Assembly: GCF_009818105.1 (NCBI RefSeq)
Contig: NZ_CP046564.1
Coordinates: 1,054,001 to 1,118,000, forward strand
From: Bacillus sp. N1-1
Lineage (GTDB): Bacteria; Bacillota; Bacilli; Bacillales; Guptibacillaceae
Direction of reading: 5' to 3'
DNA: 64,000 nt
The notes below the pieces were generated by a model. That model saw only the letters and a program-made list of their open reading frames with translations, ran no database searches and was not told the origin of the DNA. Each line of letters opens with the position of its first letter. The first letter of the stretch is position 1. The translations under genes and the position numbers were made by a program. This document shows positions 15,661 to 44,741 of the stretch, one piece after another.

Positions 15661-15695
15661 AAGGCGCAGAGGATTTTCTCCACTGCGCCTTTTTT
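15661..15695. terminator. bidirectional terminator
   Basis: AAGGCGCAG.GGA, loop TTTT, CTCC.CTGCGCCTTTTTT. It lies between the remnant (+) and the HAD phosphatase gene (-), with the dispersed repeat starting at its T-run. Confidence 0.8.
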
Positions 15696-15732
15696 CGACA
15701 TTTATTGAGCTCAATCGGGTGGTGACAGGCAC
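15694..15732 (+). repeat. dispersed bipartite repeat, copy 1
   Basis: TTCGAC at 15694-15699 and CGGGTGGTGACAGGCAC at 15716-15732, with the core beginning 27 bp after TTCGAC. The core ends 2 bp from the HAD phosphatase stop codon on the opposite strand. Confidence 0.8.
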
Positions 15733-15734
15733 GC

Positions 15735-16478
15735 TTATCCCTTCAGCACTTGATCAATTGCGTGAGCAACGCCGTGCTCGGTGTAGTCTTTTGTGACCCA
15801 GTTCGCCGCTTCTTTGACGCGGTCTTGAGCATTGCCCATTGCAACGCCAAAACCAGCTTCGCGGATCATCGCGATGTCGTTCATGCTATCTCCAACCGCC
15901 ATTACATTCTCCATTGAAAGGTCAAGCCAATCACAAACTTTCATGAGGGCAGCAGCTTTATTAACGCCAGACGGATTAATTTCAAGATTTGTAGGGCTTG
16001 AATTCGTCACTTCAAACGCCTCATTTGCCATCACTTCATCTGTAATGACCTTGCGGATATTATCATCTTTAATATCAAAGCCAAATTTCAACCACGCGTA
16101 GTCATTGATTTCGCGATCAAATGGTTTTTGCGTATTGAATACGCCTTCTGTTGTAGAAGACCAGAAATACACGTCATGCTTTACTTTTAATTCCCACAAA
16201 CGCTCGACAAGCTGATAATCAAGGTGCGTGCTGTCGACGAGGTTCAATTCCTTATCGTAGATCTGTCCGCCGTTTACCGTAACCAGGTAAGCAGAATGAC
16301 CAAGCTGTTCTGCAATATCACGACAGAACGGTAGTGAGCGCCCTGTACTTAATACGACATGAAGGCCTTTTTCTTTCGCTCGTTGAACAGCAGCTTCGTT
16401 TTCCTCTGACACCTCTCCGTCATGATTGACTAGTGTGCCATCCATATCTAATGCAATTAGTTTGATCTCTTTTTCCAT
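15735..16478 (-). CDS. Cof-type HAD-IIB family phosphatase
   Basis: A 247-residue cytoplasmic phosphatase. Motif I is LDMDGTLV with the Asp nucleophile near residue 11, motif II is STGR, motif III is the Lys of SGVNKAAAL and motif IV is GDSMNDIAM. The C2B cap lies between about residues 85 and 185. Members dephosphorylate sugar phosphates, FMN or similar small molecules; the substrate is unknown. ATG 16478 lies 8 bp after TAGGAG; the in-frame GTG at 16487 overlaps that site. The gene stands alone, and its stop codon is followed after 2 bp by a dispersed repeat copy. Confidence 0.88.
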   Translation of the reverse strand: MEKEIKLIALDMDGTLVNHDGEVSEENEAAVQRAKEKGLHVVLSTGRSLPFCRDIAEQLGHSAYLVTVNGGQIYDKELNLVDSTHLDYQLVERLWELKVKHDVYFWSSTTEGVFNTQKPFDREINDYAWLKFGFDIKDDNIRKVITDEVMANEAFEVTNSSPTNLEINPSGVNKAAALMKVCDWLDLSMENVMAVGDSMNDIAMIREAGFGVAMGNAQDRVKEAANWVTKDYTEHGVAHAIDQVLKG

Positions 16479-16797
16479 CTCTACCACTCCTATTTTTATC
16501 TACTCTCAGTTTAAACTAAATTGGTGTCGAACTGTAGTATTTGCAACTTGGAACTTTTTTCAGATTTAACGATTATACCATAGATCGCCTGAATCATTTT
16601 TTTGATAAAAAGAGTCTGTGAACGAGATTGCTTCAGCTGATTAATTGAACCGAAAAAAATTTAAAAGGAATTTCCAAAAATAAGTTTTACCGTATGAAAT
16701 TCGAGGAACTGAAAAAGTGGACTGTTCGAATCACCAATTTGGTGAAGCAGCTGCCTCAGAAGCTGAGGAAACATATCGACCAAAGAGGTGAAAGAAA
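16479..16797. other. intergenic region before gltS
   Basis: About 320 bp between the divergent HAD phosphatase and glutamate symporter genes. I see two short hairpins, CACCAATTTGGTG (16732-16744) and CCTCAG-AAG-CTGAGG (16754-16768), in the 5' leader of the symporter gene. They match no riboswitch class I know. No open frame with a ribosome site is present. Confidence 0.4.
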
Positions 16798-18225
16798 ATG
16801 AATCCAGAACAAATCGGATTCGCATTGTTGTATATTGGTGTTTTCCTACTTGTAGGAAAAATCATTCGTTTAAAAGTAAAGGTGTTACAGAACTTATTTC
16901 TCCCATCATCCATTATTGGAGGGTTTGTCGCGCTGCTTCTCGGCCCACAAGTGCTCGGGAAGATTATGTTAAATTTCGTTTCGGAAGATCATTTTCTTGC
17001 GAGTGGAATTATGACAAATACAATTATAGAAGTATGGTCTGCGTTACCAGGGTTAATGATTAACGTTGTCTTTGCCTCACTATTTCTTGGCGCAACGATG
17101 CCGAAGCTTCGTGATATATGGACGTTCGGTGGACCTCAGCTAGCATTCGGCTGGGCCATTGGCTGGGGCCAATATGTAATCGGGCTACTCGTAGCCATTT
17201 TTATTCTTACACCGTTTTTCGATATTCCAGCGATGGCTGGGGCATTGATTGAAGTTGCGTTTGAAGGTGGACACGGTACCGCAGCAGGGATGGCAAGTAC
17301 GTTTGAAGAGCTTGGCTTTGAAGAAGCTTTTGACCTTGCGATCGGTCTTGCGACAGTAGGTGTTCTTTCTGGTGTTGTTTTCGGTATTATTCTCATTAAC
17401 TGGGCAGTACGTCGAGGCAAAACGAAGGTGATCAAAGACGTGAACGGCTTTTCCGACCTTCGTAAACAGGGAATCATGGAATACCAAAATCGTGAACCAG
17501 CAGGTAAAATGACGACTCGTCCTGAGTCGATTGAACCGCTCTCGTTTCACCTCGCTATTGTTATGATTGCGATTTTAATCGGTTGGTTGATCCTTCAGGG
17601 GTTAATCGGACTAGAGAGCATCACGATCACAAACTGGACTGGCTCAAGCTTTATGAAGTATATCCCGCTCTTCCCGATCGCGATGTTCGGAGGGATTATT
17701 CTTCAAGTCTTCTTCAGCAAAAAAGATAAATACAACCTTGTCGATCGTCGTATGATCAATCGAATTCAAGGACTTGCGCTTGATGTGTTAATCATCACTG
17801 CTATCGCGACGGTGTCGCTCGACGTGATTGGTGAATACCTTGTGCCATTCCTCATTCTTGCGGTTGCAGGAATCAGCTGGAATTTATTCGGCTTCCTAAT
17901 GCTTGCACCGAAGATCATTCCTGACTACTGGTTTGAACGAGGCATTGGTGACTTTGGTCAATCGATGGGTGTGACGGCAACTGGCTTGCTTCTTATGCGT
18001 ATCGTTGATCCTGATAATGAATCGCCTGCATTTGAAGCGTTTGGTTACAAACAGCTTGTTTATGAACCATTCCTAGGAGGAGGGTTAGTTACGGCATTAT
18101 CCGTTCCGTTTATCGTGCAGTTCGGTGCGGTAGCAGGACTAATCTTCGCTGTGGTCATGGTTATACTCGGGATTGTATCGGGTATTTATTATTTCGGTAA
18201 AGGAAAGCATATTAAAAATAACTAA
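16798..18225 (+). CDS. gltS: sodium/glutamate symporter family protein (GltS)
   Basis: A 475-residue membrane protein with two inverted halves of about five helices each, as in GltS. Glycine-rich re-entrant motifs are visible: FLPSSIIGGFVALLLGP (about 33-50), VAFEGGHGTAAGMAS (about 154-168) in the first half, and GDFGQSMGVTATGLLLMR (about 380-397) in the second. It is expected to import glutamate with Na+. ATG 16798 follows AAAGAGGTGAAAGAAA. It is monocistronic and ends at a strong terminator. The annotated length is somewhat above the E. coli protein (401) because of a longer central loop (residues 200-250). Confidence 0.85.
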   Translation: MNPEQIGFALLYIGVFLLVGKIIRLKVKVLQNLFLPSSIIGGFVALLLGPQVLGKIMLNFVSEDHFLASGIMTNTIIEVWSALPGLMINVVFASLFLGATMPKLRDIWTFGGPQLAFGWAIGWGQYVIGLLVAIFILTPFFDIPAMAGALIEVAFEGGHGTAAGMASTFEELGFEEAFDLAIGLATVGVLSGVVFGIILINWAVRRGKTKVIKDVNGFSDLRKQGIMEYQNREPAGKMTTRPESIEPLSFHLAIVMIAILIGWLILQGLIGLESITITNWTGSSFMKYIPLFPIAMFGGIILQVFFSKKDKYNLVDRRMINRIQGLALDVLIITAIATVSLDVIGEYLVPFLILAVAGISWNLFGFLMLAPKIIPDYWFERGIGDFGQSMGVTATGLLLMRIVDPDNESPAFEAFGYKQLVYEPFLGGGLVTALSVPFIVQFGAVAGLIFAVVMVILGIVSGIYYFGKGKHIKNN

Positions 18226-18231
18226 AAGATG

Positions 18232-18262
18232 ACGCCATTTCTGACTTCAGGAATGGCGTTTT
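18232..18262 (+). terminator. gltS terminator
   Basis: ACGCCATTTCTG, short loop, CAGGAATGGCGTTTTC, directly after the symporter stop codon. Confidence 0.85.
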
Positions 18263-18377
18263 CGTTTATGAAATGGAAGAAGTTAGTGTTTTTTTAAGAA
18301 AGCAGAAGGGAAATTACGTTATGAAAAGAAAATGGTATAGAGTATGATCGGACTTGGATTTCGTAGGGAGGGATTCT

Positions 18378-18860
18378 TTGGGTACACCAGAACTTAGTCG
18401 TGAGGACTTGAAACTCACGGAATTAAGCTATGTAAAAATAAACGCGCTAATTTTATTAATGATTTTACCCTTATCGATGATTGGTTATCAATTTGCTGTT
18501 TCGAATGAGGAAATGTTTTTCGTCTATGAGTGGTCGCTTGTTGTTCTAGTCTTGATTTCTTTTATACTTGCAGGAGCTACGAGTATCATTTACAACAGTT
18601 CTAATACATGGCTTTCTTACGCCATTCTTAGTTTTGACCTCCAATTTACTGTTTTTGGTTTATTTATGGGGCCATACACCTCTTATGAACTCTTCTTTGT
18701 TTATTATCTTTGTTCAGCGATAGCACTAATCATTTTTATCATAACACTAAAAAAGGTGAAGGTAGTTCGATATCTTATTGTCATTTTAATCATTGTCACG
18801 GTTCTTTTAACGAGCTACATGGTGCTGCTTCAAAGCTTGTGGGGGACGAATTGGATGTAA
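18378..18860 (+). CDS. membrane protein of unknown function, five helices
   Basis: A 160-residue protein with hydrophobic segments at about 22-42, 53-73, 80-103, 107-127 and 133-155; the N-terminal 20 residues are polar. No family recognised. TTG 18378 lies about 5 bp after GTAGGGAGGG and is taken as start; the frame also contains a TTG at 18354 that overlaps no ribosome site. The following gene begins 28 bp downstream and may be co-transcribed. Confidence 0.6.
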   Translation: MGTPELSREDLKLTELSYVKINALILLMILPLSMIGYQFAVSNEEMFFVYEWSLVVLVLISFILAGATSIIYNSSNTWLSYAILSFDLQFTVFGLFMGPYTSYELFFVYYLCSAIALIIFIITLKKVKVVRYLIVILIIVTVLLTSYMVLLQSLWGTNWM

Positions 18861-18888
18861 GAAAAAGATTCAGAAAGGGTGTTAGAAA

Positions 18889-19245
18889 ATGGCGACAGCA
18901 AAGGAAAACTTTCTAAGGGCGTTCAATGAAGCTTTTATTAGCGGCGATCGTGACGTTGTGCTCGCGAGTGTGACGGATGATGTCCAATGGCATCTGATTG
19001 GTATGGAGAAGATCGAAGGGAAGGCCGCATTTGAAAAGGCATGGAATCGTATGCCTCCACAAGATGAAGCGAAACTTACGATCGATGCAATCATCACCCA
19101 TGGTGTTACTGCAGCAGTGGAAGGGAAAATTCAGGTGGGTGAAAAAACCTACGCCTTTTGCGATACGTATCGTTTTAATCAATTTAAAGATGGGATAATT
19201 AAGCAAATTCATTCTTTTATCATTGAAGAGCGGGAGGGGATCTGA
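18889..19245 (+). CDS. SnoaL-like/NTF2-fold protein
   Basis: A 118-residue single-domain protein of the NTF2-like superfamily (cone-shaped alpha+beta barrel). The N-terminal helix AKENFLRAFNEAFISGD, the strand VLASVTDDVQWHLIG and the motif KIEGKAAFEKAW match SnoaL-like proteins of bacilli. These often act as small-molecule isomerases or hydrolases, or have no known activity. No catalytic residues can be named. ATG 18889 follows AAAGGGTGTTAGAAA. It may be transcribed with the neighbouring small membrane genes. Confidence 0.8.
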   Translation: MATAKENFLRAFNEAFISGDRDVVLASVTDDVQWHLIGMEKIEGKAAFEKAWNRMPPQDEAKLTIDAIITHGVTAAVEGKIQVGEKTYAFCDTYRFNQFKDGIIKQIHSFIIEEREGI

Positions 19246-19250
19246 AGCAT

Positions 19251-19454
19251 ATGTTGAACAAATCATGGGTGAACAATCTGCTCGGGTGTTTGCTACTTCT
19301 TTCATCCGGGAGGTCTTTGGATTCGCTCATTCATAAAGGGTACGGATTATTAGGGTTTAATTTAATTTCGTTTATCGGATGTCTCCTAGCAGGTTTCTAT
19401 TATTTCTATGAAGGCTATTGTCTTTATAAGAAAAATCGCAGTGAAACGATGTAA
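19251..19454 (+). CDS. small membrane protein
   Basis: Sixty-seven residues, ATG 19251, with GGAGGGGATC overlapping the upstream stop, so probably coupled to the NTF2-like gene. Two hydrophobic segments (about 5-20 and 33-58) surround a polar loop (SSGRSLDSLIHKGYG). No family recognised. Confidence 0.55.
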   Translation: MLNKSWVNNLLGCLLLLSSGRSLDSLIHKGYGLLGFNLISFIGCLLAGFYYFYEGYCLYKKNRSETM

Positions 19455-19600
19455 GTTAGTCTAGTAAAATAGTACAAAATTCGACCTGATTTATTAGAAT
19501 CTTCTAAACTATTGTTTAAACTTCGTAAAAATCGGTTAAACTGTAATTAATCGCATAGAAACTAGAAACGTTTCTATCAATATGAATGGAGGATTGGATG

Positions 19601-19798
19601 ATGGAGAATCGAAAAGTCTACCAAAATCAGATTTCGGAAAAGAGACAGGAAATGGTCGCGCAACTACTCGAACACATCAATGCTTCCAGTATCGAACAAA
19701 AACAAGCTATATTAAAAAAAGAAATTGACCAGGCACTCGATTGTCGCGACCGTGAAACGTTTATGCAGTTAACTGATCGTCTTAATTCACTCACATAA
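19601..19798 (+). CDS. short IDEAL-domain protein
   Basis: A 65-residue soluble helical protein. Its C-terminal half, LKKEIDQALDCRDRETFMQLTDRL, fits the IDEAL domain pattern (I-D-x-A-L-x-x-x-D-x-x-x-F-x-x-L). This short module is found in bacillar proteins such as YpiB and often mediates protein contacts. The start ATG 19601 lies 8 bp after GGAGG; in-frame ATGs at 19586 and 19598 overlap or crowd that site. Function unknown. Confidence 0.65.
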   Translation: MENRKVYQNQISEKRQEMVAQLLEHINASSIEQKQAILKKEIDQALDCRDRETFMQLTDRLNSLT

Positions 19799-19869
19799 TG
19801 AAAAAGTTGGTATATATGTTAAACCGCTTGCTTATAATCTAGTAATCAAACACTCAGGAGGAGATGTTG

Positions 19870-20043
19870 ATGCTAGATTTAGCGGCGGTTTTTTATGTTG
19901 TGATGGAATGGATGAATGAAAATAAAGGGTACAAGCTCCAATCCGTCTTTCTTTTCGGCGGACTTGGTCTATCATTTGTGACATATTTTCTCTGGTTCAT
20001 AAAAAAGGGCTATAAAACGGTCGAAAGCGTCAAGAACGGATGA
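19870..20043 (+). CDS. 57-residue membrane protein
   Basis: Starts at ATG 19870, 8 bp after AGGAGG, and ends at TGA 20041. A hydrophobic N-terminal stretch (2-13) and one clear transmembrane helix (about 26-45, SVFLFGGLGLSFVTYFLWFI) are followed by a basic tail. No homologue recognised. It is separated by about 35 bp from the TTCCGCGA repeat array. Confidence 0.5.
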   Translation: MLDLAAVFYVVMEWMNENKGYKLQSVFLFGGLGLSFVTYFLWFIKKGYKTVESVKNG

Positions 20044-20078
20044 GTTGAGTGAGTATTTCGTCGTGTGGGAGAGTTCGA

Positions 20079-20171
20079 TTTCCGCGATATTTTCGTTAAT
20101 TCCGCGAATCGGACGATGAATTCCGCGAAAACGTCAAGTAATTCCGCGAAAAACTCATTTATTCCGCGAAA
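20079..20171. repeat. array of five TTCCGCGA words at 20-21 bp period
   Basis: TTCCGCGA begins at 20080, 20100, 20121, 20142 and 20162 (intervals 20, 21, 21, 20), mostly inside the longer word ATTCCGCGAA. The 11-12 bp between words are not conserved. It lies between the 3' ends of a plus-strand small gene and the minus-strand DUF4352 lipoprotein gene, beyond that gene's terminator. The period equals two helical turns. Confidence 0.9.
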
Positions 20172-20177
20172 CGAAAA

Positions 20178-20201
20178 AAAGACACCCTGAGGGGCATCTT
20201 T
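20178..20201 (-). terminator. terminator of the DUF4352 lipoprotein gene
   Basis: On the minus strand AGATGCCC, loop CTCA, GGGTGTCT followed by seven T; the stem starts next to the stop codon. Confidence 0.75.
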
Positions 20202-20877
20202 AAAAAGGGACGGTGATCGATTGGCCCTTCGTGAGCGTTTCTTCCTTTTTATCGAACACATCACTTGTTTGAATTGTTATGGCATTCAGTTGCTCTAGGT
20301 CAGTCGTATTTAGAACAAAGCCAAGTTGCCCGGTTTTTTCTTCACCAGATGCGTAATCTCCGTAAAGGTTCTCTAGATAAAAGTCATCATCGAATCCTTT
20401 CTTCTCACCGTCACTCGTTTCAAGCGTTGAAACTGGAGCAAAGTTGACTGTTTTATCCGACGTGTTCTTTACATGGATGCGAATCTTTACATAGTTAAAT
20501 TCCGTTTCATCGTTGGAATAGCCATGAAAGAAATCGATTAAGTCAGGGGAGGGCGCATATGCCATTACCTTCACATCTGAAACGGTTAACTCAACATCCC
20601 CAATCGTCGTTTTTTCGTTAAAGTCAGAGCTTGCTTTTAACGTAATAGAGCCGTCCGCATCCTGATAAGTTTGGCCAACTTCAGTTAGTGAGCTGTCATC
20701 AGGTGCCTGTGGACTATCGATTAATCCTTTGTTTTCGTTTTGATCTGCATTTGTTTCATCTTCTTTTGTCACGGTTGTCGTGTTCTCTGTTTGTGAACCA
20801 GCTTGTTGGTTCGCATTGTTAGCGCACCCCCCAAGAAAAAGAGAGGCAGTACATAGGATGATCAGTACGTGCTTCAT
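20200..20877 (-). CDS. DUF4352-type lipoprotein
   Basis: A 225-residue lipoprotein with the lipobox LGGC near residue 18, an acidic low-complexity linker (about 20-65) and a C-terminal immunoglobulin-like DUF4352 domain. The domain is marked by TIGDVELTVSDVKVM, the NYVKIRIHVKNTSDKTVNF strand pair and GEEKTGQLGFVL. Members are extracytoplasmic proteins of unknown ligand. ATG 20877 follows GAGGAGGTTATATTAC; the in-frame TTG upstream overlaps that site. The insert DLIDFFHGYSNDETE (about 110-124) is longer than usual. Confidence 0.8.
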   Translation of the reverse strand: MKHVLIILCTASLFLGGCANNANQQAGSQTENTTTVTKEDETNADQNENKGLIDSPQAPDDSSLTEVGQTYQDADGSITLKASSDFNEKTTIGDVELTVSDVKVMAYAPSPDLIDFFHGYSNDETEFNYVKIRIHVKNTSDKTVNFAPVSTLETSDGEKKGFDDDFYLENLYGDYASGEEKTGQLGFVLNTTDLEQLNAITIQTSDVFDKKEETLTKGQSITVPF

Positions 20878-20909
20878 GTAATATAACCTCCTCAATCAGA
20901 AAGAAAACT

Positions 20910-20933
20910 CCCGCTGCTTTTGGAAGCAACGGG
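20910..20933 (-). terminator. alkaline phosphatase terminator
   Basis: CCCGTTGCTT, loop CCAA, AAGCAGCGGG then AGTTTTC on the minus strand, just after the phosphatase stop codon. Confidence 0.8.
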
Positions 20934-20941
20934 ACGTTTTT

Positions 20942-22357: not shown

Positions 22358-22410
22358 TTTTAGTTCCCCCCGGCTCATTTTTTCTCACAAAACATAGTTT
22401 ACTTGATTAA

Positions 22411-22438
22411 CTTGAAGTGAATGTTAATCGATTGTAAT
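22411..22438 (-). promoter_or_regulatory. Pho boxes of the alkaline phosphatase gene
   Basis: Three hexamers exactly 11 bp apart on the minus strand: ATTACA, TTAACA and TTCAAG (beginning at plus-strand 22433, 22422 and 22411). PhoP boxes are TT(A/T/C)ACA repeats at 11-bp spacing upstream of bacillar Pho-regulon genes, and the target gene is the expected one. Confidence 0.6.
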
Positions 22439-22779
22439 GATCGTTTTAAGATAATAGGGTCGATTGTCACAGTCAAAAAAAGTAGGTTATCTCGAAGGAT
22501 AGTCATATTTCTTTTCAAAATAAAAGTCTAGTGTTTCTTACTATGATCGTAATGATAGCGAAACCATTTTACAAGTGTAGATGGATAAATTAGGTAATAA
22601 GAGCGAGGGGAACAGATGCGTTTATTGGCAGGAGAAGCATTTTGATGTCTATTCTCACACGACCTTTTTCACAGAAGAAAAAAAGAGAAGATTGAAACAG
22701 CGGTCTTACGATTAGGCAATACTTCTACGAAACTGTTAAAATTATCATTATAATGAAAAAATGAAAAGGGGAGATTGGA
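22439..22779. other. intergenic region between phoA and the acetamidase gene
   Basis: About 340 bp. The last 40 bp hold TTATCATTATAATGA (22742-22756), which resembles a Fur/PerR-type operator (about 11 of 14 to the PerR consensus) and includes a TATAAT -10. No coding frame longer than a few residues with a ribosome site was seen. Confidence 0.35.
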
Positions 22780-23676: not shown

Positions 23677-23716
23677 TTCGACATATGCTGACAATAGTTC
23701 GGGTGGTGCCTGTCAC
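23677..23716 (-). repeat. dispersed bipartite repeat, copy 2 (core inverted)
   Basis: TTCGAC at 23677 starts right after the amidase stop; CGGGT at 23700 and GGTGCCTGTCAC at 23705-23716. The flank has the usual orientation and spacing (28 bp) but the core is reversed, which its near-palindromic form makes easy. Confidence 0.75.
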
Positions 23717-23759: not shown

Positions 23760-23792
23760 GGTGCCTGTCACTTGTCGAATTTGTCGAATTAA
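23760..23792 (-). repeat. dispersed repeat, copy 3
   Basis: GGTGCCTGTCAC at 23760-23771, followed by TGTCGAATTTGTCGAATT, that is, two inverted TTCGACA words right behind the core. It lies just upstream of the Gfo/Idh/MocA gene. Confidence 0.7.
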
Positions 23793-23808
23793 TTGGAGGA
23801 ATAGAATT

Positions 23809-24792
23809 ATGATTCGTTTTGGAGTTATTGGAACAAATAAGATTACGGATAATTTTCTTGAGGGGGCGACTGAGCTTAGCGATTTTAAGCTTACGGCGGT
23901 CTACTCTCGAACAGAAGAAAAGGCGCAGGCATTTGCTGAGAAGCATGGTGCAGAGGCGACGTTCACGAGTCTTCAGGAAATGGCGAATAGCGCGCCCATT
24001 GATGCAGTCTACATTGCGAGTCCCAACTCGTTACATGCAGAACAATCAATCATTTTCATGAACGCTGGGAAGCACGTGCTTTGTGAGAAGCCGATGGCGT
24101 CAAATAAACATGAAGTCTTACAAATGGTCGAGACTGCCACGCGTAACGGCGTTCTTTTGATGGAAGCCATGAAATCCACCGTGATGCCGAACATGCAGAT
24201 GGTGCGAGAGAATTTGCATAAAATCGGTCAAATTCGTCGCTTTGTTGCGAATTACGGCCAGTATTCGTCGCGTTATGATGCTTATAAAGAAGGAACGGTG
24301 CTAAATGCATTTAACCCTAAGTTTTCAAATGGGTCACTGATGGATATCGGCGTATATGGCGTTTATCCTGTCGTATCCATGCTTGGCATGCCGCAGTCGA
24401 TTAAGGCAGAAGGCGTCATGCTAGAGTCGGGCGTTGATGGAGAAGGCAGTATTTTACTTGGGTATGAAGACAAAGAAGCGGTGATTATGTTTTCAAAAAT
24501 CACAGATTCTCATCTTCCATCCGAAATTCAAGGGGAGAACGGGAGTATCCTCATCGACAAGATCGGTTCACCGATGGATGTGAAAATCCATTATCGAGAT
24601 GGATCGATTGAAGACCTGTCGCAGTCGCAATCCCATACGATGATGTATGAAGCGAAGGAGTTTATTGAATTAATCCAGGCTGGTAAGGATCATTCTTCTA
24701 TCAACTCACATGAAAATTCTCTAAATTCCATTGAAGTCATAGATGAAGCACGGAAGCAAATTGGGGTCGTTTTTCCAGCCGATCACCAATAA
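23809..24792 (+). CDS. Gfo/Idh/MocA-family oxidoreductase
   Basis: A 327-residue NAD(P)-dependent dehydrogenase. The N-terminal Rossmann fold reads FGVIGTNKITDNF, with SRTEEKAQAFAEKHGA for the second strand and helix. The signature CEKPMASN (about residues 92-99) carries the conserved Lys that contacts cofactor and substrate. The C-terminal alpha/beta domain starts near residue 125. Substrates are usually sugars, inositol or bile-pigment-like compounds; none can be chosen here. ATG 23809 follows TTGGAGGAATAGAATT; a longer frame from 23761 begins inside a dispersed repeat and was rejected. Confidence 0.85.
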   Translation: MIRFGVIGTNKITDNFLEGATELSDFKLTAVYSRTEEKAQAFAEKHGAEATFTSLQEMANSAPIDAVYIASPNSLHAEQSIIFMNAGKHVLCEKPMASNKHEVLQMVETATRNGVLLMEAMKSTVMPNMQMVRENLHKIGQIRRFVANYGQYSSRYDAYKEGTVLNAFNPKFSNGSLMDIGVYGVYPVVSMLGMPQSIKAEGVMLESGVDGEGSILLGYEDKEAVIMFSKITDSHLPSEIQGENGSILIDKIGSPMDVKIHYRDGSIEDLSQSQSHTMMYEAKEFIELIQAGKDHSSINSHENSLNSIEVIDEARKQIGVVFPADHQ

Positions 24793-26911: not shown

Positions 26912-27261
26912 TATCCACTCCTTTCAGTTACAATTATTGGTTCCCAGTAAGCGTTTTATTCAAACGAAGTCAAAAGTTGTGTTTTTTTTTCGGAAGATGG
27001 AATGAAGGAAGATCGTCTTAGGACAATTCGGATGTTTTTTTCAAATGACAAGATTGTCGCTATGATCCAGGGGCCTTAATGGCGATTTACTTAAGTGCGC
27101 TGCACCGTTTGGGGTACAATGACTTCTTTTCTCAAAGGAGCTCGCCATCTTTCTATATCCTATCGTTCACCCCCCTCAACTACTATCTTGAGAAGGAAAC
27201 TGTTATAATATCCAACGAGGTGACAAATTGTGACAAATTACGGGAGGTGACAGGCACCATC
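26912..27261 (+). other. intergenic region with extended -10 promoter
   Basis: Divergent region of 350 bp. TGTTATAAT at 27201-27209 is an extended -10 element for the downstream oxidoreductase; no good -35 is seen. It is followed by a tandem 10-bp direct repeat TGACAAATTG/TGACAAATTA (27221-27240) and by repeat copy 4, which forms the ribosome site. A TTTTTTTTT run lies near 26982. Confidence 0.45.
27246..27258 (+). repeat. dispersed repeat, copy 4, forming a ribosome binding site
   Basis: GGTGACAGGCACC preceded by TGACAAATTACGGGA. The join GGGAGGTGA is a near-perfect Shine-Dalgarno 11 bp before ATG 27262. The flank TGACAAAT-ACGGG is shared with copy 9 at 41328-41341. Confidence 0.75.
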
Positions 27262-28302
27262 ATGAAAGCAGTTCAAGTAATAGGTTATGGTGATGTAGAT
27301 CAGTTAGAAGTCGTAGAACGGGAGATTCCTGTTCCGAAAGAGAATGAGGTACTCGTTAAGGTAAAAGCATGCGCGATTAATAATACGGAAATTTGGATGC
27401 GAGAAGGGGCATATGGAACAGGAACGAAATCAGGATGGCGTCCTGAAGGTGTTCAGTTTCCTAGAACACCAGGATCGGATATTACCGGTACGATTGTGAA
27501 AGTCGGTCAACAAGTGAAGGAGGGGATGATCGGAAAGAACGTCGTTCTCTTTCCTTTTACTTCGAGCGGAGAGCCAGGGTCTGAACATATTTCAGAAGAT
27601 ATGTCTTTCATTGGATCAGAATATGACGGAGGATATGCGGAATATGTTGTATGGCCAGCAGAACTCTGTTTTGACATGCCTCTTGCTGACTATACAGAGA
27701 GTGCCGTATTCTCTGTTAGTGGGATGACGGCCTGGCATATGGTTGAACAAATTCAGCCTAAGCAGGGCGAGACCGTTATGGTTACAGGAGCAAACGGTGG
27801 AGTAGGTTCTCTGAACGTTCAAATAGCGTCTCGTGTATTTGGTGCTAATGTGATCGCGATAGTAGGCGATCTCGCTTTGGAAGATCAGTTGAAGAAGCTT
27901 GGGGCAACGCACGTGTTTTCCTACAAATCGGATCAGCTTGCTGAAGAAATACTTGAAGTGAATGGTGGACCGATTGACTCAGTGTTAGATGTTGTTGGAG
28001 ATGCGTTGTTTTCAACTTCTATTTATGTTTTAAAAAAGGGCGGCAAGTTTTGCACTTCTGGCTCTGCTGGGGGACAGAAAACAGAACTTGATTTTAGAAC
28101 ATTGTATTTGAAGCACATAACGCTCTATGGCTCTGTTCTTGGTACAAGAGAAGAATTTAAACGGATGCTTGAAGCGATAGCTGATGGGAAAATCACACCA
28201 GTGATTGACCGAACGTTTCCATTAGAACAAGCGAGAGAGGCTCAACGTTATTTTAAGAAAGCGGGTAAACTAGGAAAAATTGTGCTACTTCCTGAAGAGT
28301 AA
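27262..28302 (+). CDS. zinc-independent MDR-family quinone/enoyl reductase
   Basis: A 346-residue medium-chain dehydrogenase/reductase. The GroES-like domain begins MKAVQVIGYGDVDQLEVVER, contains CAINNTEIWMREG and TPGSDITGTIV; the Rossmann motif is VTGANGGVGSLNVQIA (about 169-184). The Cys-rich structural zinc loop of alcohol dehydrogenases is absent, as in quinone oxidoreductases. It probably reduces quinones or activated double bonds with NADPH. ATG 27262 is chosen because family alignment starts there. A frame extending to 27079 runs through the promoter and repeat and is rejected. Confidence 0.83.
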   Translation: MKAVQVIGYGDVDQLEVVEREIPVPKENEVLVKVKACAINNTEIWMREGAYGTGTKSGWRPEGVQFPRTPGSDITGTIVKVGQQVKEGMIGKNVVLFPFTSSGEPGSEHISEDMSFIGSEYDGGYAEYVVWPAELCFDMPLADYTESAVFSVSGMTAWHMVEQIQPKQGETVMVTGANGGVGSLNVQIASRVFGANVIAIVGDLALEDQLKKLGATHVFSYKSDQLAEEILEVNGGPIDSVLDVVGDALFSTSIYVLKKGGKFCTSGSAGGQKTELDFRTLYLKHITLYGSVLGTREEFKRMLEAIADGKITPVIDRTFPLEQAREAQRYFKKAGKLGKIVLLPEE

Positions 28303-28870: not shown

Positions 28871-28918
28871 TTCGACTATAATTGATGTTTTTGAGCGAAA
28901 GCGGGCGGTGACAGGCAC
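28871..28918 (+). repeat. dispersed repeat, copy 5
   Basis: TTCGAC at 28871 and GCGGGCGGTGACAGGCAC ending at 28918; here the spacing is 36 bp rather than 27 and the CGGGT is CGGGC. It lies in the untranslated region before the GntP permease. Confidence 0.6.
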
Positions 28919-28996
28919 TCGCGCATTTGCCTAAATGCCAATAAAATCACTAATAAAAGAAATTGGTTTTATTGCTTATTCAAACGGGTAACATCA

Positions 28997-29036
28997 TTCG
29001 GGTGAATTCGAGTAAATGTGGGTGGTGACAGGCACC
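28997..29036 (+). repeat. dispersed repeat, copy 6
   Basis: GGTGACAGGCACC at 29024-29036 preceded by GGGT. TTCGGG (one or two changes from TTCGAC) lies exactly 27 bp before the core, and TTCGAG 17 bp before. TCGACTTTTGTCGA follows at 29042. The gap 28826-29120 holds only copies 5 and 6 and a ribosome site; no gene is seen. Confidence 0.6.
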
Positions 29037-31312: not shown

Positions 31313-31352
31313 TTCGACTTTTCCCTCCATAAACCGGGTGGTGACAGGCACC
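31313..31352 (+). repeat. dispersed bipartite repeat, copy 7
   Basis: TTCGAC at 31313, CGGGT at 31335 and GGTGACAGGCACC at 31340-31352; spacing is exactly 27 bp. It lies between the bdh start region and the BCCT terminator, both on the minus strand. Confidence 0.8.
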
Positions 31353-37521: not shown

Positions 37522-37522
37522 G

Positions 37523-37552
37523 TTCGACAGGAAACGAGCGGTGACAGGCACC
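37523..37552 (+). repeat. dispersed repeat, copy 8
   Basis: TTCGAC at 37523 and GCGGTGACAGGCACCGC around core 37540-37552. The spacing is 17 bp here, 10 bp shorter than the usual 27. The core ends 2 bp from the VOC gene stop codon on the other strand. Confidence 0.75.
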
Positions 37553-37554
37553 GC

Positions 37555-37905: not shown

Positions 37906-38107
37906 GAGGAGAAAGAACCTGCCTTTCCTTCATAGTTTTCAGCCTATTTCATCTGTAAAGCGAAAAGCGATCCGACTAAGAAGAATGGATCTAGCTTACT
38001 CTTATCATATAACGAATCCGTACCTTAAAAAAGGGGTTGTAAAAAAATGGGTAGGAATATGAAGGGTGTTTTATTAACAAAGGAATTGGAACACAGGGTC
38101 TTTTGGA

Positions 38108-38147
38108 TGATCACTAGCCCGACGCATATGCGTCGAGCTAGTGATCA
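38108..38147. repeat. 40-bp near-perfect palindrome after the amine oxidase gene
   Basis: TGATCACTAGC-C-CGACGCA-TA-TGCGTCG-A-GCTAGTGATCA, symmetric around 38127/38128 with a single mismatched pair (G-U capable on the minus-strand RNA). It lies just after the stop of the flavin amine oxidase gene and has no T-run, so it may act as a stabilising or unusual terminator stem or as a protein-binding site. Confidence 0.8.
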
Positions 38148-38153
38148 ATACCA

Positions 38154-39623: not shown

Positions 39624-39841
39624 GTTTTGATAGCCTCCTTGTCTAGTAAACGTCCTTGATAACCAGGATAAGGATTCACCTTATTAATCTATGTCTAACA
39701 AAAAAAGGATATGAAATGTGAAATTCTTCTTTCAATAACGGAGAGAATGGTTAGAAAGAAGAACCGTTTCCTGGGCGCAAACATAAACTACAAAAAAACA
39801 AAACAGATGCGGGACGTACTTGTATTTGAAGGAGGAACGAC

Positions 39842-41257
39842 ATGAACCGGCAGAAACCTCTAACCTCACTGTTTACGAAGCGAAAGCCGAATTTTCTTAT
39901 CTTAATGGTGGATGAAGAACTCTATCCGTCAGTCTATGAACCGGATGAAGTGGGAGCCTGGCCGAAGAAAAATCTTTTAATGCAGGAACTTTTGCTTGAA
40001 AATGGATTTGAATTTAAGAATCACTATATTGGCAGCTCCGCCAGTTCTCCTAGTGAAATGACGCTTTATACAGGGCAGTATCCTTCCCTGCATGGGGTAA
40101 CGCAAACGAGTTTCTCGGCGAAAACGCAATTCAATCATGATATCGATTCGAATCACGTTCCAACGATGAGAGATTACTTACAAAAAGCCGGATATCAAGC
40201 TTACTGGAAAGAAAAATGCTTCGCTTCAGTTAAGGGCATTCAAGTGGCTAATCAGAGCACCGCAGCAGCAACTAACGAGGAAAGTGTTTCCGATGTGGTG
40301 TATGCGGATGAAGTTATGGCACTGCTTCAAAAGCTTGATAGAGAAGAAACGGAAGAATCAAAGCAGTGGGTGATTTTCAGCTCGTTTCTTTCAGAACAAA
40401 GTCACGGTCAGGTGATGAAAGTATTTCAGACGTTAAAGAAGACGACGTTTTATAGGAATACGATCGTTCTCTTTCTATTGATTGAGGGGCAAGGGTTAGG
40501 AGCGGATGGAAAGCGTAATGAAAAAAGAAATAATGTGTTTGAAAAATCGATTCATGTCCCCTTGATTGTTCATAGTCCGGCGCTCTTTAACGGCAAAAAG
40601 AGCACTACAATGCTAACCAGTCATGTAGACGTACTACCGACCATGTTAGGGCTTGCGGGAATTGATGAGGAAGAGATTCAGACGTTGCTTAGCTTTGATT
40701 ATACGGAAGTTCGTCCGCTTGTCGGAAGAGATCTTACTCCGCTCCTGTCGGGGAAGAAGCGATTTTACCGGGCAAATGAACCGCTTTATTTTATGACGAA
40801 TGATGATGGAAGACGAGGACTTAATGGTGCTCCTGAAGAATCAGAGGAATTAGTTGTCCAACCGAACCATATTGAAGCAGTGATGACAACGTTGCATACT
40901 GGCGACGAGGATCAGAAGGAAGTTTGGAAATACGCTCGTTACTATGATGATCCACAATTCTGGAGAATTCCTGGCGTGTCAGATGTGACCGTCACTCAAT
41001 CGAATTCTGTTCCATCTGAAGTGGAGGAACCATTATCAAGATGGGTAACCACTACAAAGACGACTCCCGCTCCGGATGAATTTGAGCTATACAACGTAAC
41101 ACGCGATCCGTTAGAAGAAAAAAACCTCGCTCATCCAAACTTTGAAACACCTGAATCGAAAGAAAATCAAAAGGTTTTATCGCTCATACTAGAAGAGCAG
41201 CGTCGTCAGAAGCGATTGTCTCCGAGGAGAAGCGGCGCAGGGAACGTCGCTATGTGA
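39842..41257 (+). CDS. sulfatase-fold protein with degenerate active site
   Basis: A 471-residue soluble protein of the alkaline-phosphatase/sulfatase superfamily: PNFLILMVDEELYP at the N-terminus, the SPSEMTLYTGQYPSLHGV block (about 69-86), the LTSHVDVLPTMLGLAG block (about 258-273) and ELYNVTRDPLEEKNLAH near the end. Key residues are changed. The formylglycine motif C/S-x-P-S-R reads SSPSE, the metal DD reads DE, and the SDHG motif reads IEGQG. It is therefore unlikely to be a working sulfatase. ATG 39842 follows GAAGGAGGAACGAC. It is divergent from an amine oxidase. Confidence 0.75.
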   Translation: MNRQKPLTSLFTKRKPNFLILMVDEELYPSVYEPDEVGAWPKKNLLMQELLLENGFEFKNHYIGSSASSPSEMTLYTGQYPSLHGVTQTSFSAKTQFNHDIDSNHVPTMRDYLQKAGYQAYWKEKCFASVKGIQVANQSTAAATNEESVSDVVYADEVMALLQKLDREETEESKQWVIFSSFLSEQSHGQVMKVFQTLKKTTFYRNTIVLFLLIEGQGLGADGKRNEKRNNVFEKSIHVPLIVHSPALFNGKKSTTMLTSHVDVLPTMLGLAGIDEEEIQTLLSFDYTEVRPLVGRDLTPLLSGKKRFYRANEPLYFMTNDDGRRGLNGAPEESEELVVQPNHIEAVMTTLHTGDEDQKEVWKYARYYDDPQFWRIPGVSDVTVTQSNSVPSEVEEPLSRWVTTTKTTPAPDEFELYNVTRDPLEEKNLAHPNFETPESKENQKVLSLILEEQRRQKRLSPRRSGAGNVAM

Positions 41258-41285
41258 GTTTACTGAGATTTAGGACTGTAAACAT

Positions 41286-41319
41286 CGAAAGCGGAAGCGC
41301 TTATGCTCTTCCGCTTTCG
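41286..41319 (+). terminator. terminator
   Basis: CGAAAGCGGAAG, loop CGCTTATGCT, CTTCCGCTTTCG, a perfect 12-bp stem followed by ACGTTTTGT. The distal arm ends in the TTCGAC of repeat copy 9. Confidence 0.7.
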
Positions 41320-41355
41320 ACGTTTTGTGACAAATAACGGGTGGTGACAGGCACC
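41316..41355 (+). repeat. dispersed bipartite repeat, copy 9
   Basis: TTCGAC at 41316, CGGGT at 41338 and GGTGACAGGCACC at 41343-41355, spacing exactly 27. The flank TGACAAATAACGGG is shared with copy 4. Confidence 0.8.
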
Positions 41356-41601
41356 CTCACGAACTAGATCTTTGTGCTTATCTTTGTCAACTAACAAACC
41401 CATCGAATGATTTAATGAACTTCAATTATCGTGACTTAAAGACTACTAAAAAGTAATAATATGGTACTTATCTACAACGATAGACACGCACTGAAAAGTT
41501 CCATACGCACCACCAAGTAATAATTTTATCGCTTTCATATTCGCTTTTAGTAGTTCTATACTGTGACAGTAAACAAAACAGCTAGGAAGGAGTGAACACA
41601 T
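41356..41601 (+). other. intergenic region before the quinone reductase gene
   Basis: About 245 bp. AAGTAATAATATGGTACTT (41451-41469) contains the inverted pair AAGTA/TACTT, and a second AAGTAATAATTTT occurs at 41515. These could be regulator sites. TATACT near 41561 may be the -10. No coding frame was seen. Confidence 0.35.
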
Positions 41602-42153
41602 ATGAAGAACATTCTATTGATTAATGGACATGAGTATTTTCCGAAGTCGAAGGGAGAGTTAAACAAAACGATCTTTAATGAATGGAACGAAGTCCTCTCA
41701 TCAGACTATGAAGTGAAAACAACGATCGTTGATGAAGGGTATGATGTCGACCAAGAAATTGAGAAGTGGCAGTGGGCAGATGTCATCATCATGCAAACGC
41801 CGATTTACTGGTTTAGTATCCCAGGTAACTTCAAGAAATACATTGACCGTGTCTACATGGACAAGATTTTCTTCATCGGATCCGATCGTTATGGTCAGGG
41901 CGGGATGTTTACTGAGAAGAAATATATGCTGTCGCTCACATGGAACGCACCTGAAGCAGCGTTTGGAAATGAACAGAGCTTCTTTGAAGGACGAGATCTT
42001 GATCAAGCGATCGATCACCTTCACAAGATGAACCAATACATCGGTATGCGTCCGCTACCTACCTACTCGATTCACAATGTGATGAAGGAAACAAATATGC
42101 CGCACTATAAGACAAAGCTTCATGATCATTATCGAGAAGTATTTGGGAAATAG
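41602..42153 (+). CDS. flavodoxin-fold NAD(P)H quinone reductase (MdaB type)
   Basis: A 183-residue flavoprotein. The phosphate loop region INGHEYFPKSKGELN (8-22) binds FMN/FAD; ADVIIMQTPIYWFSIPGNFKKYIDRV (about 59-84) is the conserved core of MdaB/NQO enzymes, and YMLSLTWNAPEAAFG follows. Members perform two-electron reduction of quinones and electrophiles with NAD(P)H. It is directly followed by an aldo/keto reductase, so the pair may serve detoxification of quinones and carbonyls. ATG 41602 follows GGAAGGAGTGAACACAT. Confidence 0.85.
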   Translation: MKNILLINGHEYFPKSKGELNKTIFNEWNEVLSSDYEVKTTIVDEGYDVDQEIEKWQWADVIIMQTPIYWFSIPGNFKKYIDRVYMDKIFFIGSDRYGQGGMFTEKKYMLSLTWNAPEAAFGNEQSFFEGRDLDQAIDHLHKMNQYIGMRPLPTYSIHNVMKETNMPHYKTKLHDHYREVFGK

Positions 42154-42232
42154 CGCATTCCATTACCATCAGAAGGTTTAAAATTAGATTTTCGGGAAAA
42201 CCAATAAAGGAAGATTGAAAGGAGTAATAATC

Positions 42233-43072
42233 ATGACAGTACAAACAAAAACACTAAACAACAATATTGAAATGCCTGAACTAGGTTACGGCGTATTTCG
42301 AGTAGAGCAAGGTCAGGAATTGGTTGAAGCTGTGAAAACAGCGATTAAGAAAGGCTATCGCAGCATTGATACGGCTGCGATCTACGGTAACGAGGAAAGT
42401 GTAGGTCAAGGCGTTAACCAAGCGATTGAAGAAGGTCTCGTAACGAGAGATGAACTTTTCATTACTTCAAAAGTATGGAACGACGATCTATCTTACGATG
42501 AAACGATTCAAGCTTATGAAACAAGCCTATCTAAGCTAGGTCTTGAGTATTTAGATCTTTACCTGATTCACTGGCCAGGGGATAACAAATACCAGGAGCC
42601 TTGGAAAGCATTAGAAACCCTATATAAAGAAAAACGTGTACGTGCTATTGGCGTAAGTAACTTCCAGGTAAACCACCTTGAAGATCTTCGCAAAAACTTT
42701 GAGATTACACCGGTAATTAACCAAATTGAATTCCACCCCCGCTTAACGCAAGAAGAAGTGAGAACGTATTGTGAAGAGCACAACATTCAAGTGGAAGCAT
42801 GGTCACCACTAATGGCTGGTGAATTGTTGGATAACGAAACGATCGCAGGCATTGCAGAGAAATACAATAAGTCTGTAGCTCAGGTTATCCTTCGCTGGGA
42901 CTTGCAGCATAACGTTATTACGATTCCAAAATCAATGAACGAGAAGCGCATTGAAGCGAACATCGACCTCTTTGATTTTGAACTAACATCAGAGGAAATG
43001 AAGCAGCTCGATGCATTGAATGACAATGCTCGTAGCGGTCCTCATCCCGATGAATTTGATTTTAAAATGTAA
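42233..43072 (+). CDS. aldo/keto reductase (YvgN/2,5-diketogluconate reductase type)
   Basis: A 279-residue NADPH-dependent reductase. The catalytic tetrad is Asp and Tyr in IDTAAIYGNE (about 45-54), Lys in FITSKVWND (about 79) and His in YLIHWPG (about 112). The C-terminal IPKSMNEKRIEAN binds NADPH. The best-characterised relatives (YvgN, YtbE) reduce methylglyoxal and other aldehydes. ATG 42233 follows GAAAGGAGTAATAATC; an in-frame ATG at 42215 precedes that site. It is 79 bp from the MdaB-type gene and probably shares its transcript. Confidence 0.9.
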   Translation: MTVQTKTLNNNIEMPELGYGVFRVEQGQELVEAVKTAIKKGYRSIDTAAIYGNEESVGQGVNQAIEEGLVTRDELFITSKVWNDDLSYDETIQAYETSLSKLGLEYLDLYLIHWPGDNKYQEPWKALETLYKEKRVRAIGVSNFQVNHLEDLRKNFEITPVINQIEFHPRLTQEEVRTYCEEHNIQVEAWSPLMAGELLDNETIAGIAEKYNKSVAQVILRWDLQHNVITIPKSMNEKRIEANIDLFDFELTSEEMKQLDALNDNARSGPHPDEFDFKM

Positions 43073-43078
43073 GACCGA

Positions 43079-43113
43079 AGAAGGATCTTATCTGTTGATA
43101 AGATCCTTCTTTT
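43079..43113 (+). terminator. terminator
   Basis: AGAAGGATCTTATC, loop TGTT, GATAAGATCCTTCTTTT after the aldo/keto reductase. Confidence 0.85.
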
Positions 43114-43173
43114 AGATTTCTAGCGGTAATGGCAAGTCTACTCGAAACCAATATCAAAAAGTGATAACTAGCG

Positions 43174-43205
43174 AAGCCGATCTCATTTTTGGGATCGGCT
43201 TTTTC
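43174..43205 (+). terminator. second terminator without an obvious gene
   Basis: AAGCCGATC, loop TCATTTTTG, GGATCGGCTTTTTC, about 60 bp after the previous terminator. It may be a fail-safe copy or end a short untranslated RNA. Confidence 0.6.
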
Positions 43206-43286
43206 AAATTCTAAAAATTTATTTTCCCCGCGATGCCCCTTTTTCAACTTTCCAAACGATATATAGGGTGAAAGGAGGTGATCAGC

Positions 43287-43505
43287 ATGGCAACCTCATC
43301 CCTAATGGATACGCAGCTTCGCATGGTACTTGAAGTTGGCGTTGACGAGAATGGCAAATCCATTTTTCGCAGCAAGAACTTCAACAACGTGAAAACATCC
43401 GCTACGCCTGATGCGCTGTTTGCAGTCGCATTAGCGCTAGCACCGCTTCAGCAGCACAATTTGTTTGCAGTTGAGCGCAATGATTCGTCTGATCTTCAAG
43501 CGTAA
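43287..43505 (+). CDS. DUF1659 protein
   Basis: A 72-residue protein: TQLRMVLEVGVDENGKSIFRSKNFNNVKTSATPDALFAVALAL. This beta-then-helix pattern is the DUF1659 family, found with DUF2922 and YvrJ proteins in sporulating Firmicutes. The ribosome site GAAAGGAGGTGATCAGC is nearly perfect; ATG 43287 is chosen over an in-frame ATC/ATG upstream. Function unknown. Confidence 0.8.
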   Translation: MATSSLMDTQLRMVLEVGVDENGKSIFRSKNFNNVKTSATPDALFAVALALAPLQQHNLFAVERNDSSDLQA

Positions 43506-43542
43506 CGAATTCACAAAACTTTAAGGAAGGAGGAAAACCAGC

Positions 43543-43761
43543 ATGGCCAAAACACTCGAACTTCAGTTCAACACGCGTGACAACAAACCTTTTTCGATTA
43601 CGCTAAGCGATCCAGTCGAGCCTGTGAATCCAGCTACAATTGCAGCGGCGATGGATACGCTTCTTGCACAAAACTGTTTTACAACAAGTGGAGGCGACCT
43701 TGTTTCGAAAAAAGGCGCCCGTATCATTGAGCGCAACGAGAATGACATTATTATCGGTTAA
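43543..43761 (+). CDS. DUF2922 protein
   Basis: A 72-residue protein (KTLELQFNTRDNKPFSITLS, then DPVEPVNPATIAAAMDTLLAQNCF and a C-terminal GARIIERNENDIIIG). It fits DUF2922, the usual partner of DUF1659. ATG 43543 follows AAGGAAGGAGGAAAACCAGC. It lies 37 bp after the DUF1659 gene in the same operon. Function unknown. Confidence 0.8.
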   Translation: MAKTLELQFNTRDNKPFSITLSDPVEPVNPATIAAAMDTLLAQNCFTTSGGDLVSKKGARIIERNENDIIIG

Positions 43762-43769
43762 GCAATTCA

Positions 43770-43796
43770 GAGGAAGGGCACTTGTCCTTCCTCTTT
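43770..43796 (+). terminator. intra-operon hairpin
   Basis: GAGGAAGG, loop GCACTTGT, CCTTCCTC then TTTAG, between the DUF2922 and YvrJ genes; a weak attenuator. Confidence 0.6.
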
Positions 43797-43831
43797 AGCA
43801 AGTTAACTAAGCGAACAAGGAGGGAGAACGA

Positions 43832-43993
43832 ATGGAGTCCTGGATGTCTCTGATCAGCGATGTTGGCTTTCCGGTTGTGGTCACGCTTTACTTGCTACAC
43901 CGCATTGAGCAAAAGCTCGATACGCTGAACGATACCATTCTGCAGCTACCAGATCACTTAAACGCTCGAAGTTCGAATCAGAAAACAGGGTGA
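43832..43993 (+). CDS. YvrJ-family protein
   Basis: Fifty-three residues, ATG 43832 after AACAAGGAGGGAGAACGA. The sequence (MESWMSLISDVGFPVVVTLY, then LLHRIEQKLDTLNDTILQL) has one N-terminal helix and an amphipathic coiled segment, the YvrJ pattern. It completes the DUF1659-DUF2922-YvrJ trio. It is below common ORF length limits. Function unknown. Confidence 0.75.
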   Translation: MESWMSLISDVGFPVVVTLYLLHRIEQKLDTLNDTILQLPDHLNARSSNQKTG

Positions 43994-44006
43994 TCCCTGT
44001 AAAAAG

Positions 44007-44042
44007 GAGAGAAGGTTCACTAGGAAAAGTGAGCCCTCTCTC
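44007..44042 (+). terminator. hairpin after the YvrJ gene
   Basis: GAGAGAAGGTTCACT, loop AGGAAA, AGTGAGCC.CTCTCTC, 14 bp after the YvrJ stop. No T-run; probably a 3' end stem. Confidence 0.5.
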
Positions 44043-44201
44043 TACAATACATAAGCCATACCCAACTTCATATCGAACAGCGGCTTCCCATTCTTTTCTT
44101 AAATTTGGAGATGGTGAGGTTTCTTCAAGTGCGCCGTTGTTCAGAACGTGGAATGCCTACCGCACGTTTGAAAATAAAACTTGTCAGGTGAGCTGAAGCC
44201 G

Positions 44202-44354
44202 ATGCAGAAAATTCAGCGTTCTCAAAGATACACAGTTCCCGGTTTCTGTGGTGAGAAGCTATGGCGTGAACGGCCGTTAACGGTTCGGGTAGGTAACCAG
44301 GCGTACTACGGTACGGGTAGCAGCGCACAGATGGCGCACATTGGACTGGTTTGA
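44202..44354 (+). CDS. uncertain 50-residue frame
   Basis: ATG 44202 to TGA 44352 with a weak GGTGAG upstream. The product (MQKIQRSQRYTVPGFCGEKL, then an Arg-rich middle and GTGSSAQMAHIGLV) is unlike any family I know. It may be a chance frame within a decayed or structured region. Confidence 0.2.
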   Translation: MQKIQRSQRYTVPGFCGEKLWRERPLTVRVGNQAYYGTGSSAQMAHIGLV

Positions 44355-44447
44355 TGTGTAGAAAGTGTGCTGTTGAAGAAATTTAAGCGTTCAAATCGGG
44401 TGATACGGTGGAAACCTCAGAAGGTCTCAGTAGACTTCAGTAGAAAA

Positions 44448-44511
44448 GGACGGCTACTTTTCCAGCGCTGATGTTTTTTATCAGCGCTGTAAAGGTAGTC
44501 ATTCTCTGTCC
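44448..44511. other. long imperfect hairpin
   Basis: Arms GGCTACTTT.CAGCGCTGAT and ATCAGCGCTG.AAAGGTAGTC enclose a G-T6 loop, with outer GGAC/GTCC pairs. The upper stem CAGCGCTG is itself palindromic. About 20 base pairs in total; a candidate structured RNA element. Confidence 0.5.
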
Positions 44512-44702
44512 AATGTTTCCTATCTGATCTAGTGCCTTCAGAGGTTTAAGGGCACAAGAGAGCATTGGAGCTTAGGAAAATAAAGAGGAAGAAAGAGAAG
44601 GATGGGGGATATGATAGGGGGTTGGGGAGAGCGGGTCAGAGTTTGACGTTAGGTTTTAATACGGAGAGTACGATCGATTATCGTATAAAGCTACACATAC
44701 AA

Positions 44703-44741
44703 TTCGACATCATGTAACACCAATCGGGTGGTGACAGGCAC
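44703..44741 (+). repeat. dispersed bipartite repeat, copy 10
   Basis: TTCGAC at 44703, CGGGT at 44725 and GGTGACAGGCAC at 44730-44741; spacing exactly 27. The last base of the core is the last base of the ArsR-type regulator's stop codon on the minus strand. Confidence 0.8.

Follow-up and report, generated by a model that had tools for sequence, protein, structure and literature searches.

The 64,000-nt window analyzed here, positions 1,054,001 to 1,118,000 of the forward strand of NZ_CP046564.1, contains a cluster of a short extragenic repeat with the core GGTGACAGGCAC (coordinates of its parts are given as window positions). We predict that this element is a target, similar to the repetitive extragenic palindromes (REPs), of a REP-associated tyrosine transposase (RAYT), i.e. 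a transposase-like nuclease of the HUH/Y1 type, and we would put the probability of this reading at roughly 0.7. The repeat is paired with a RAYT gene, and both the repeat and the gene are under constraint. Protein matches place the host genome within Guptibacillus (Pseudalkalibacillus) or close to it, next to the hwajinpoensis group.

Form and abundance of the repeat

A preliminary description of this DNA had claimed a dispersed repeat, and the repeat is real: with up to two mismatches allowed, GGTGACAGGCAC has 12 matches in the window against a mean of 1.84 and a maximum of 6 in 100 shuffles, and the genome (4.50 Mb, one contig) holds 41 exact copies and none (0) of the reversed word, so the count is far above the control and not at the chance level that would have told against the description. 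The 13 other congeners searched carry 16-55 copies each, the reversed word occurring twice in all of them together. The ten core copies described earlier were recovered at their coordinates; eight are exact, all on the plus strand and within 29 kb (15721, 27246, 28907, 29024, 31340, 37540, 41343 and 44730), but the two at 23705 and 23760 are one letter off the 12-mer (GGTGCCTGTCAC on the plus strand, which is AGTGACAGGCAC on the minus strand at 23706 and 23761). The palindrome GGTGCCAGGCACC at 5812, counted on both strands, supplies the remaining two of the 12 matches. The spacing of TTCGAC was also reproduced: it is 27 bases to the core in four copies (TTCGAC at 15694, 31313, 41316 and 44703), 28 bases to an inverted core for TTCGAC at 23677, and 17 bases to the core for TTCGAC at 37523. 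All ten copies are extragenic, as had been said, provided that the ATG starts at 27262 (open reading frame 27079-28302) and 23809 (open reading frame 23761-24792) are used; the mechanically called frames start further upstream and as listed would include the copies at 27246 and 23760.

TTCGAC and the core do form a unit, as was first proposed, but the unit is wider than these two words. In its fuller form TTCGACA belongs to a 10-bp unit, TTCGACAAAT, which is present once or twice and is followed by CGGGYGGTGACAGGCAC, the consensus being CGGGYG-GTGACAGGCAC. Among the 43 distinct copies read from this genome, TCGAC lies exactly 27 bases before GTGAC in 22 and 17 bases before it in 4 more, and CGGG stands immediately 5' of the core in most; a minority, for example that at 23677, carry a core that runs opposite to the arms. 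Nine of the ten window copies have their arms oriented toward the plus strand. A second right-hand form was also seen, several copies (L012, L018, L020, L022, L026 and the window copy at 28907) continuing as CACTCGCG and not as CACC.

Pairing of repeats with RAYT genes

The genome has three Y1_Tnp genes. The first, RAYT1 (C1:3,895,500-3,896,060, minus strand, 193 aa), lies outside the window and has a copy of the element about 150 bp upstream of its start codon. Within 80 kb of it are 15 of the 41 element copies (1.5 expected), and the cluster around it is the densest 30 kb of the genome, with nine exact copies where random placement gave at most 6 in 2000 trials. Only one of the 41 copies lies within 80 kb of the second gene, RAYT2 (4,192,271-4,192,795), which goes with a different palindrome, GGTCAGG-NNCGNN-CCTGACC; this has 34 exact and 6 one-mismatch sites in the genome (reversed control 0), and 14 of the 34 exact ones are within 80 kb of RAYT2 (1.2 expected). 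The RAYT2 palindrome family is concentrated at C1 4127-4193 kb, 1401-1436 kb and 3794-3853 kb. The third Y1_Tnp gene (L002, 1093-1875, minus strand) has a longer C-terminus, helix-turn-helix-like by eye, and the motif YIHQNP; no repeat was assigned to it.

RAYT1 is represented by one match above 300 bits in each of 14 genus genomes, among the matches listed. For the 14 of 45 congener pairs with a computable synonymous value, its ratio of nonsynonymous to synonymous divergence is 0.06-0.12, and among the species of the genus the least diverged comparisons have a synonymous divergence of 0.4-1.3. A congener protein 93% identical to it has a predicted structure with a confidence score (pLDDT) of 89, and the best Foldseek match of the model is E. 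coli TnpAREP in complex with a REP hairpin (4er8, E 8e-7, TM 0.73 by target), with 2vic and 2xqc also among the top matches. The HUH histidines H60 and H62 and the tyrosine Y119 are invariant in 39 sequences. RAYT1 passes the Pfam cut-off for Y1_Tnp. The family model NF047646 (REP-associated tyrosine transposase) gave it 73.5 bits, which is below the NF047646 cut-off of 80. The motifs NHYH in RAYT1 and NHVH in RAYT2, together with YIHLNP in both, correspond to the row of TnpAY1 subclass 2.1 in Table 1 of Quentin 2018 (PMC6006769), apart from FE in RAYT1 where that table has FQ, and on these motifs both proteins would fit subclass 2.1.

Across genus genomes the arms of the element share one direction within each cluster (82:6 by strand in the window region and 85:9 in the RAYT1 region, all genus genomes examined). 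A replication polarity rule was tried for this and rejected: with the origin taken near the dnaA match at about 1 kb, the clusters of the window and of RAYT1 lie on the right and left arm, respectively, and their shared plus orientation fits neither the leading nor the lagging strand.

The pairing extends beyond the genus. In the best 80 of 189 named Bacillales RAYT loci, GTGACAGGCAC occurs within 400 bp of the RAYT gene at 41, with 60 copies in 64 kb (0.94 per kb) near the genes against 77 in 402 kb (0.19 per kb) farther off and 0 for the reversed control. The exact 12-mer has 22 copies in 19 of these loci 30-350 bp before the RAYT gene; its frequency in the remainder of the loci would predict 1.6. 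A k-mer search blind to the core listed the core word in the top three of the repeated 11-mers at 34 of the 80 loci and brought up look-alikes at single loci (GTGACTGGCAC in L087 and GTGTCAGACAC in L094). At the level of whole genomes (150 searched, 136 of them from other genera of the family and order), at least three cores were found in 14 of the 24 genomes that have a RAYT1-like gene (E < 1e-60, a line drawn after the data were seen), in 9 of 60 with other RAYTs only and in 2 of 52 without a RAYT match; with kinship ignored, Fisher's p is 8e-7 for 14/24 against 11/112.

The relative G090 carries 181 cores genome-wide. Within 122 kb chosen for density, its 77 cores make up 26 inverted pairs at a start-to-start distance of 28 bp, four pairs at other spacings and 17 singles, and one 28-bp inverted pair stands on either side of a RAYT. 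These inverted pairs have the architecture of REPINs, i.e. REP doublets, and the dispersed copies are near-identical; the G090 RAYT has the motif YIHQNP, not that of subclass 2.1. Between G090 and its congener G051 no more than three short matches were obtained, and insertion ends were not obtained from empty sites. A further core-bearing form, approximately CTTTG-GTGACAGGCAC-CAAAG and often followed by CATAGCT, was seen in G090 at C3 433-435 kb and on C8 (L207, L210 and L214).

Conservation at orthologous places

Conservation was followed in two chromosomal regions, of 11 and 7 genomes (the genus genomes G003, G007 and G010 being left out), in directed comparisons that count each pair both ways; sites with unaligned flanks were dropped, and one or more orthologues were aligned for 85 of 92 and 79 of 96 sites, respectively. 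Over the two regions together the core is kept in at least 651 of 665 orthologous comparisons. The window region accounts for 401 of 406, one core base being left free in that count, and its five apparent absences were rejected as anchoring artefacts, three in G004 where the copy is in place and two in G002 where the right flank maps 60 bp after a listed core. In the RAYT1 region the core is kept in 250 of 259, degenerate in 7 and absent in 2, and these nine comparisons trace to three distinct decayed copies, in this genome (G000), G008 and G004. Mean pairwise identity (28 groups, 324 pairs) peaks at -28 to -21 and at -6 to +10, which gives a two-box footprint; its right edge is sharp, identity being 0.58-0.78 in the roughly 15 bases that follow, and left of -28, where the DNA is partly coding, identity is 0.65-0.91. 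Membership of each copy in an unrelated conserved gene region, which would have told against the preliminary description, was not found, the core being a conservation peak inside less conserved DNA. The comparison of orthologous loci that had been called for thus showed the copies in place and the edges of the footprint, but no clean empty site. The fourth core base is A in some species and C in others at 4 of 6 aligned sites (window 15721, 37540, 41343 and 44730 and their orthologues), and C at this place yields GGTGCCAGGCACC, a near-perfect palindrome.

Copies at orthologous positions, three of them decayed and none facing an empty site, are also what would be seen if the element were a functionless fossil of a REP or a miniature inverted-repeat transposable element (MITE), whose likeness among species reflects shared descent only. 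This is very improbable, as control 11-mers at four nearby offsets in the RAYT1 region survive in 282 of 1036 comparisons while the core survives in 250 of 259. All 11 core bases are kept in 81% of pairs against 19% expected at the mean flank identity of 0.785 (the sites of the footprint analysis were picked by their core, so that the core columns are enriched by choice), and the synonymous divergence of RAYT1 given above speaks against shared descent alone as well. The genus copies are not drifting, unlike the REP singlets of Pseudomonas, which are described as decaying, drifting remnants (PMC3116915).

Strong constraint at fixed places is also expected of the binding site of an unrelated host protein, a regulator or a nucleoid protein, with the RAYT genes being one of its targets or lying near its sites by chance. 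Two boxes (TTCGACA and CGGGYGGTGACAGGCAC) at a somewhat free spacing, copies in both orientations to genes, a weak hairpin and a window cluster without a RAYT all agree with such a site, which is the main rival explanation. We nevertheless regard it as unlikely: the core is five times denser within 400 bp of RAYTs over 80 loci from many genera, RAYT2 is surrounded by another palindrome in the same genome, and inverted pairs are amplified round the RAYT of G090.

Interpretation of the element

Several observations weigh against a RAYT target. A profile search of the genome found no RAYT inside the window, and the pairing is imperfectly separate, since 4 of the 41 elements lie within 80 kb of RAYT3 and 5 of the 34 exact RAYT2 palindromes within 80 kb of RAYT1. 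The exact core has no copy within 400 bp at 39 of the 80 RAYT loci; fewer than three copies were found in 10 of the 24 genomes with a RAYT1-like gene and at least three in 2 of the 52 without a RAYT match, and the survey suffers from its late-drawn line and from the lack of a kinship correction. Three genus forms of the element fold as single-stranded DNA at z of -0.80, -0.25 and 0.93, i.e. no better than shuffles and unlike canonical REPs, and no clean empty site that would speak for mobility was seen in the window and RAYT1 regions of the genus. The weak predicted hairpin and the missing empty sites count against simple REP behavior in this genus. Good folds as single-stranded DNA were obtained for a palindromic variant and for the form seen in G090 (z -5.4 and -12.0, respectively).

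Of the three possibilities raised in the preliminary description, the small non-autonomous repeat is supported by the RAYT pairing and the protein-binding site by the constraint, while an RNA element is not supported. The copies at 15721, 31340 and 41343 adjoin terminator-like hairpins and that at 27246 lies in a gene leader, as might be expected of a terminator, an attenuator or a leader structure. An Rfam search of the window found no family matching the element, the fold (with DNA parameters) is weak, the copies stand in either orientation to genes, those at 15721 and 31340 being antisense to the adjoining minus-strand genes, and that at 37540 lies between convergent genes. A role at the RNA level is hence scarcely tenable.

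If the element is a RAYT target, RAYT1 would recognize CGGGYGGTGACAGGCAC in single-stranded DNA, with TTCGACA as a second contact, and would cut and rejoin at the element via its tyrosine. The element may long ago have been copied from place to place, often nearby, and such local copying would account for the clusters. Spreading in the genus is probably now slow or over, and selection may maintain the sites for some useful activity that RAYT1, which is itself subject to purifying selection, carries out there. A more specific possibility, which we put forward tentatively, is that of a domesticated RAYT with roughly 15-55 fixed conserved sites, both under purifying selection and co-inherited across the genus, so that a formerly mobile pair would now serve the host in the processing of single-stranded DNA, e.g. 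at replication forks or gene boundaries.

Table 1. Copies of the element and a palindromic relative in the window
Feature	Position	Strand	Congeners
Element, TTCGAC then 27 bp to core GGTGACAGGCAC at 15721	15694..15732	+	Orthologous copy in 6/6 aligned
Element with inverted core, TTCGAC..CGGGTGGTGCCTGTCAC	23677..23716	+	Conserved in 6 aligned
Minus-strand element TTCGACAAATTCGACAAGTGACAGGCACC, without CGGG	23760..23788	-	Found in six aligned
Element with TGACAAAT units in place of TTCGAC; overlaps likely ribosome-binding site, gene start 27262	27218..27257	+	
Element, TTCGAC 36 bp before core 28907, continuing as CACTCGCG	28871..28918	+	
Element, core 29024 preceded by TGGGT; usual place without TTCGAC	28996..29035	+	
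Element, TTCGAC 27 bp to core 31340	31313..31351	+	Present in 10/10 examined
One-unit element, TTCGAC 17 bp before core 37540	37523..37551	+	7/7 aligned, five with GGTGCCAGGCACC
Element directly after terminator-like hairpin, core 41343	41316..41354	+	
Element, TTCGAC 27 bp to core 44730; abuts end of gene 44741-45640 (-)	44703..44741	+	
Palindromic relative GGTGCCAGGCACC within terminator-like hairpin; membership uncertain	5812..5824	none	

Elsewhere in the window, the minus strand carries a purine riboswitch aptamer at 2646-2746 (Rfam RF00167, 76 bits), the only Rfam family found there, and a small open reading frame at 14866-15291 with an Excalibur calcium-binding domain and an LPXTG anchor.

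Relation to known systems and significance

With the REPs and REPINs of Pseudomonas and E. coli the element shares its shortness, its extragenic and dispersed placement, one family per RAYT, a copy beside the RAYT and clustering, and in G090 also the inverted doublets that flank a RAYT. The genus differs in several respects. Its copies are mostly singlets, so that an inverted doublet is not the unit in this genome, and they are conserved at orthologous places. No REP-type palindromic hairpin with a clear 5' GT[AG]G foot was found, the GTGG in CGGGTGGTG overlapping the putative stem. REPs usually exceed 100 copies per genome (PMC2817692), a number reached by the cores of G090 but not by the 41 exact copies here. 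The main text of that paper names neither Bacillus nor Firmicutes. RAYT group 1, which is TnpAY1 subclass 2.1 of Quentin 2018, shares its HuH and Y motifs with RAYT1 and RAYT2 as well as the HUH fold; RAYT1 has 193 aa against the 238 aa listed for the subclass, whose proteins are long and carry a conserved C-terminal extension, the assignment here being made by motifs. According to the searches reported in that paper, automatic or manual, no REP-like sequences were found with subclasses 2.1 and 2.3, and the repeats of RAYT1 and RAYT2 do not agree with such a lack of REP association. The catalytic fold is common to the IS200/IS605 family (IS608 and ISDra2; 2vic and 2xqc), from which RAYT1 differs in behaving as a single vertically kept gene. 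Finally, bcr1 (PMC3733652) and other MITEs of Bacillus relatives are likewise non-coding dispersed repeats, but the present element is much shorter and is tied to a Y1 gene. A literature search with the core words gave no title on bacterial repeats, and among the open-access papers matched for RAYT, REPIN and TnpAREP no title listed dealt with such repeats in Bacillales.

According to PMC8049555, RAYTs are domesticated transposases, and what exactly they do is unknown. The pairing described here accounts for a repeat that all 13 congeners searched carry, and it extends the RAYT-REP association to RAYTs of Bacillota with the motifs of a subclass that was reported as free of REPs. A genus in which a RAYT and its sites are jointly conserved, the sites at countable fixed places, offers a direct handle on the function of RAYTs.

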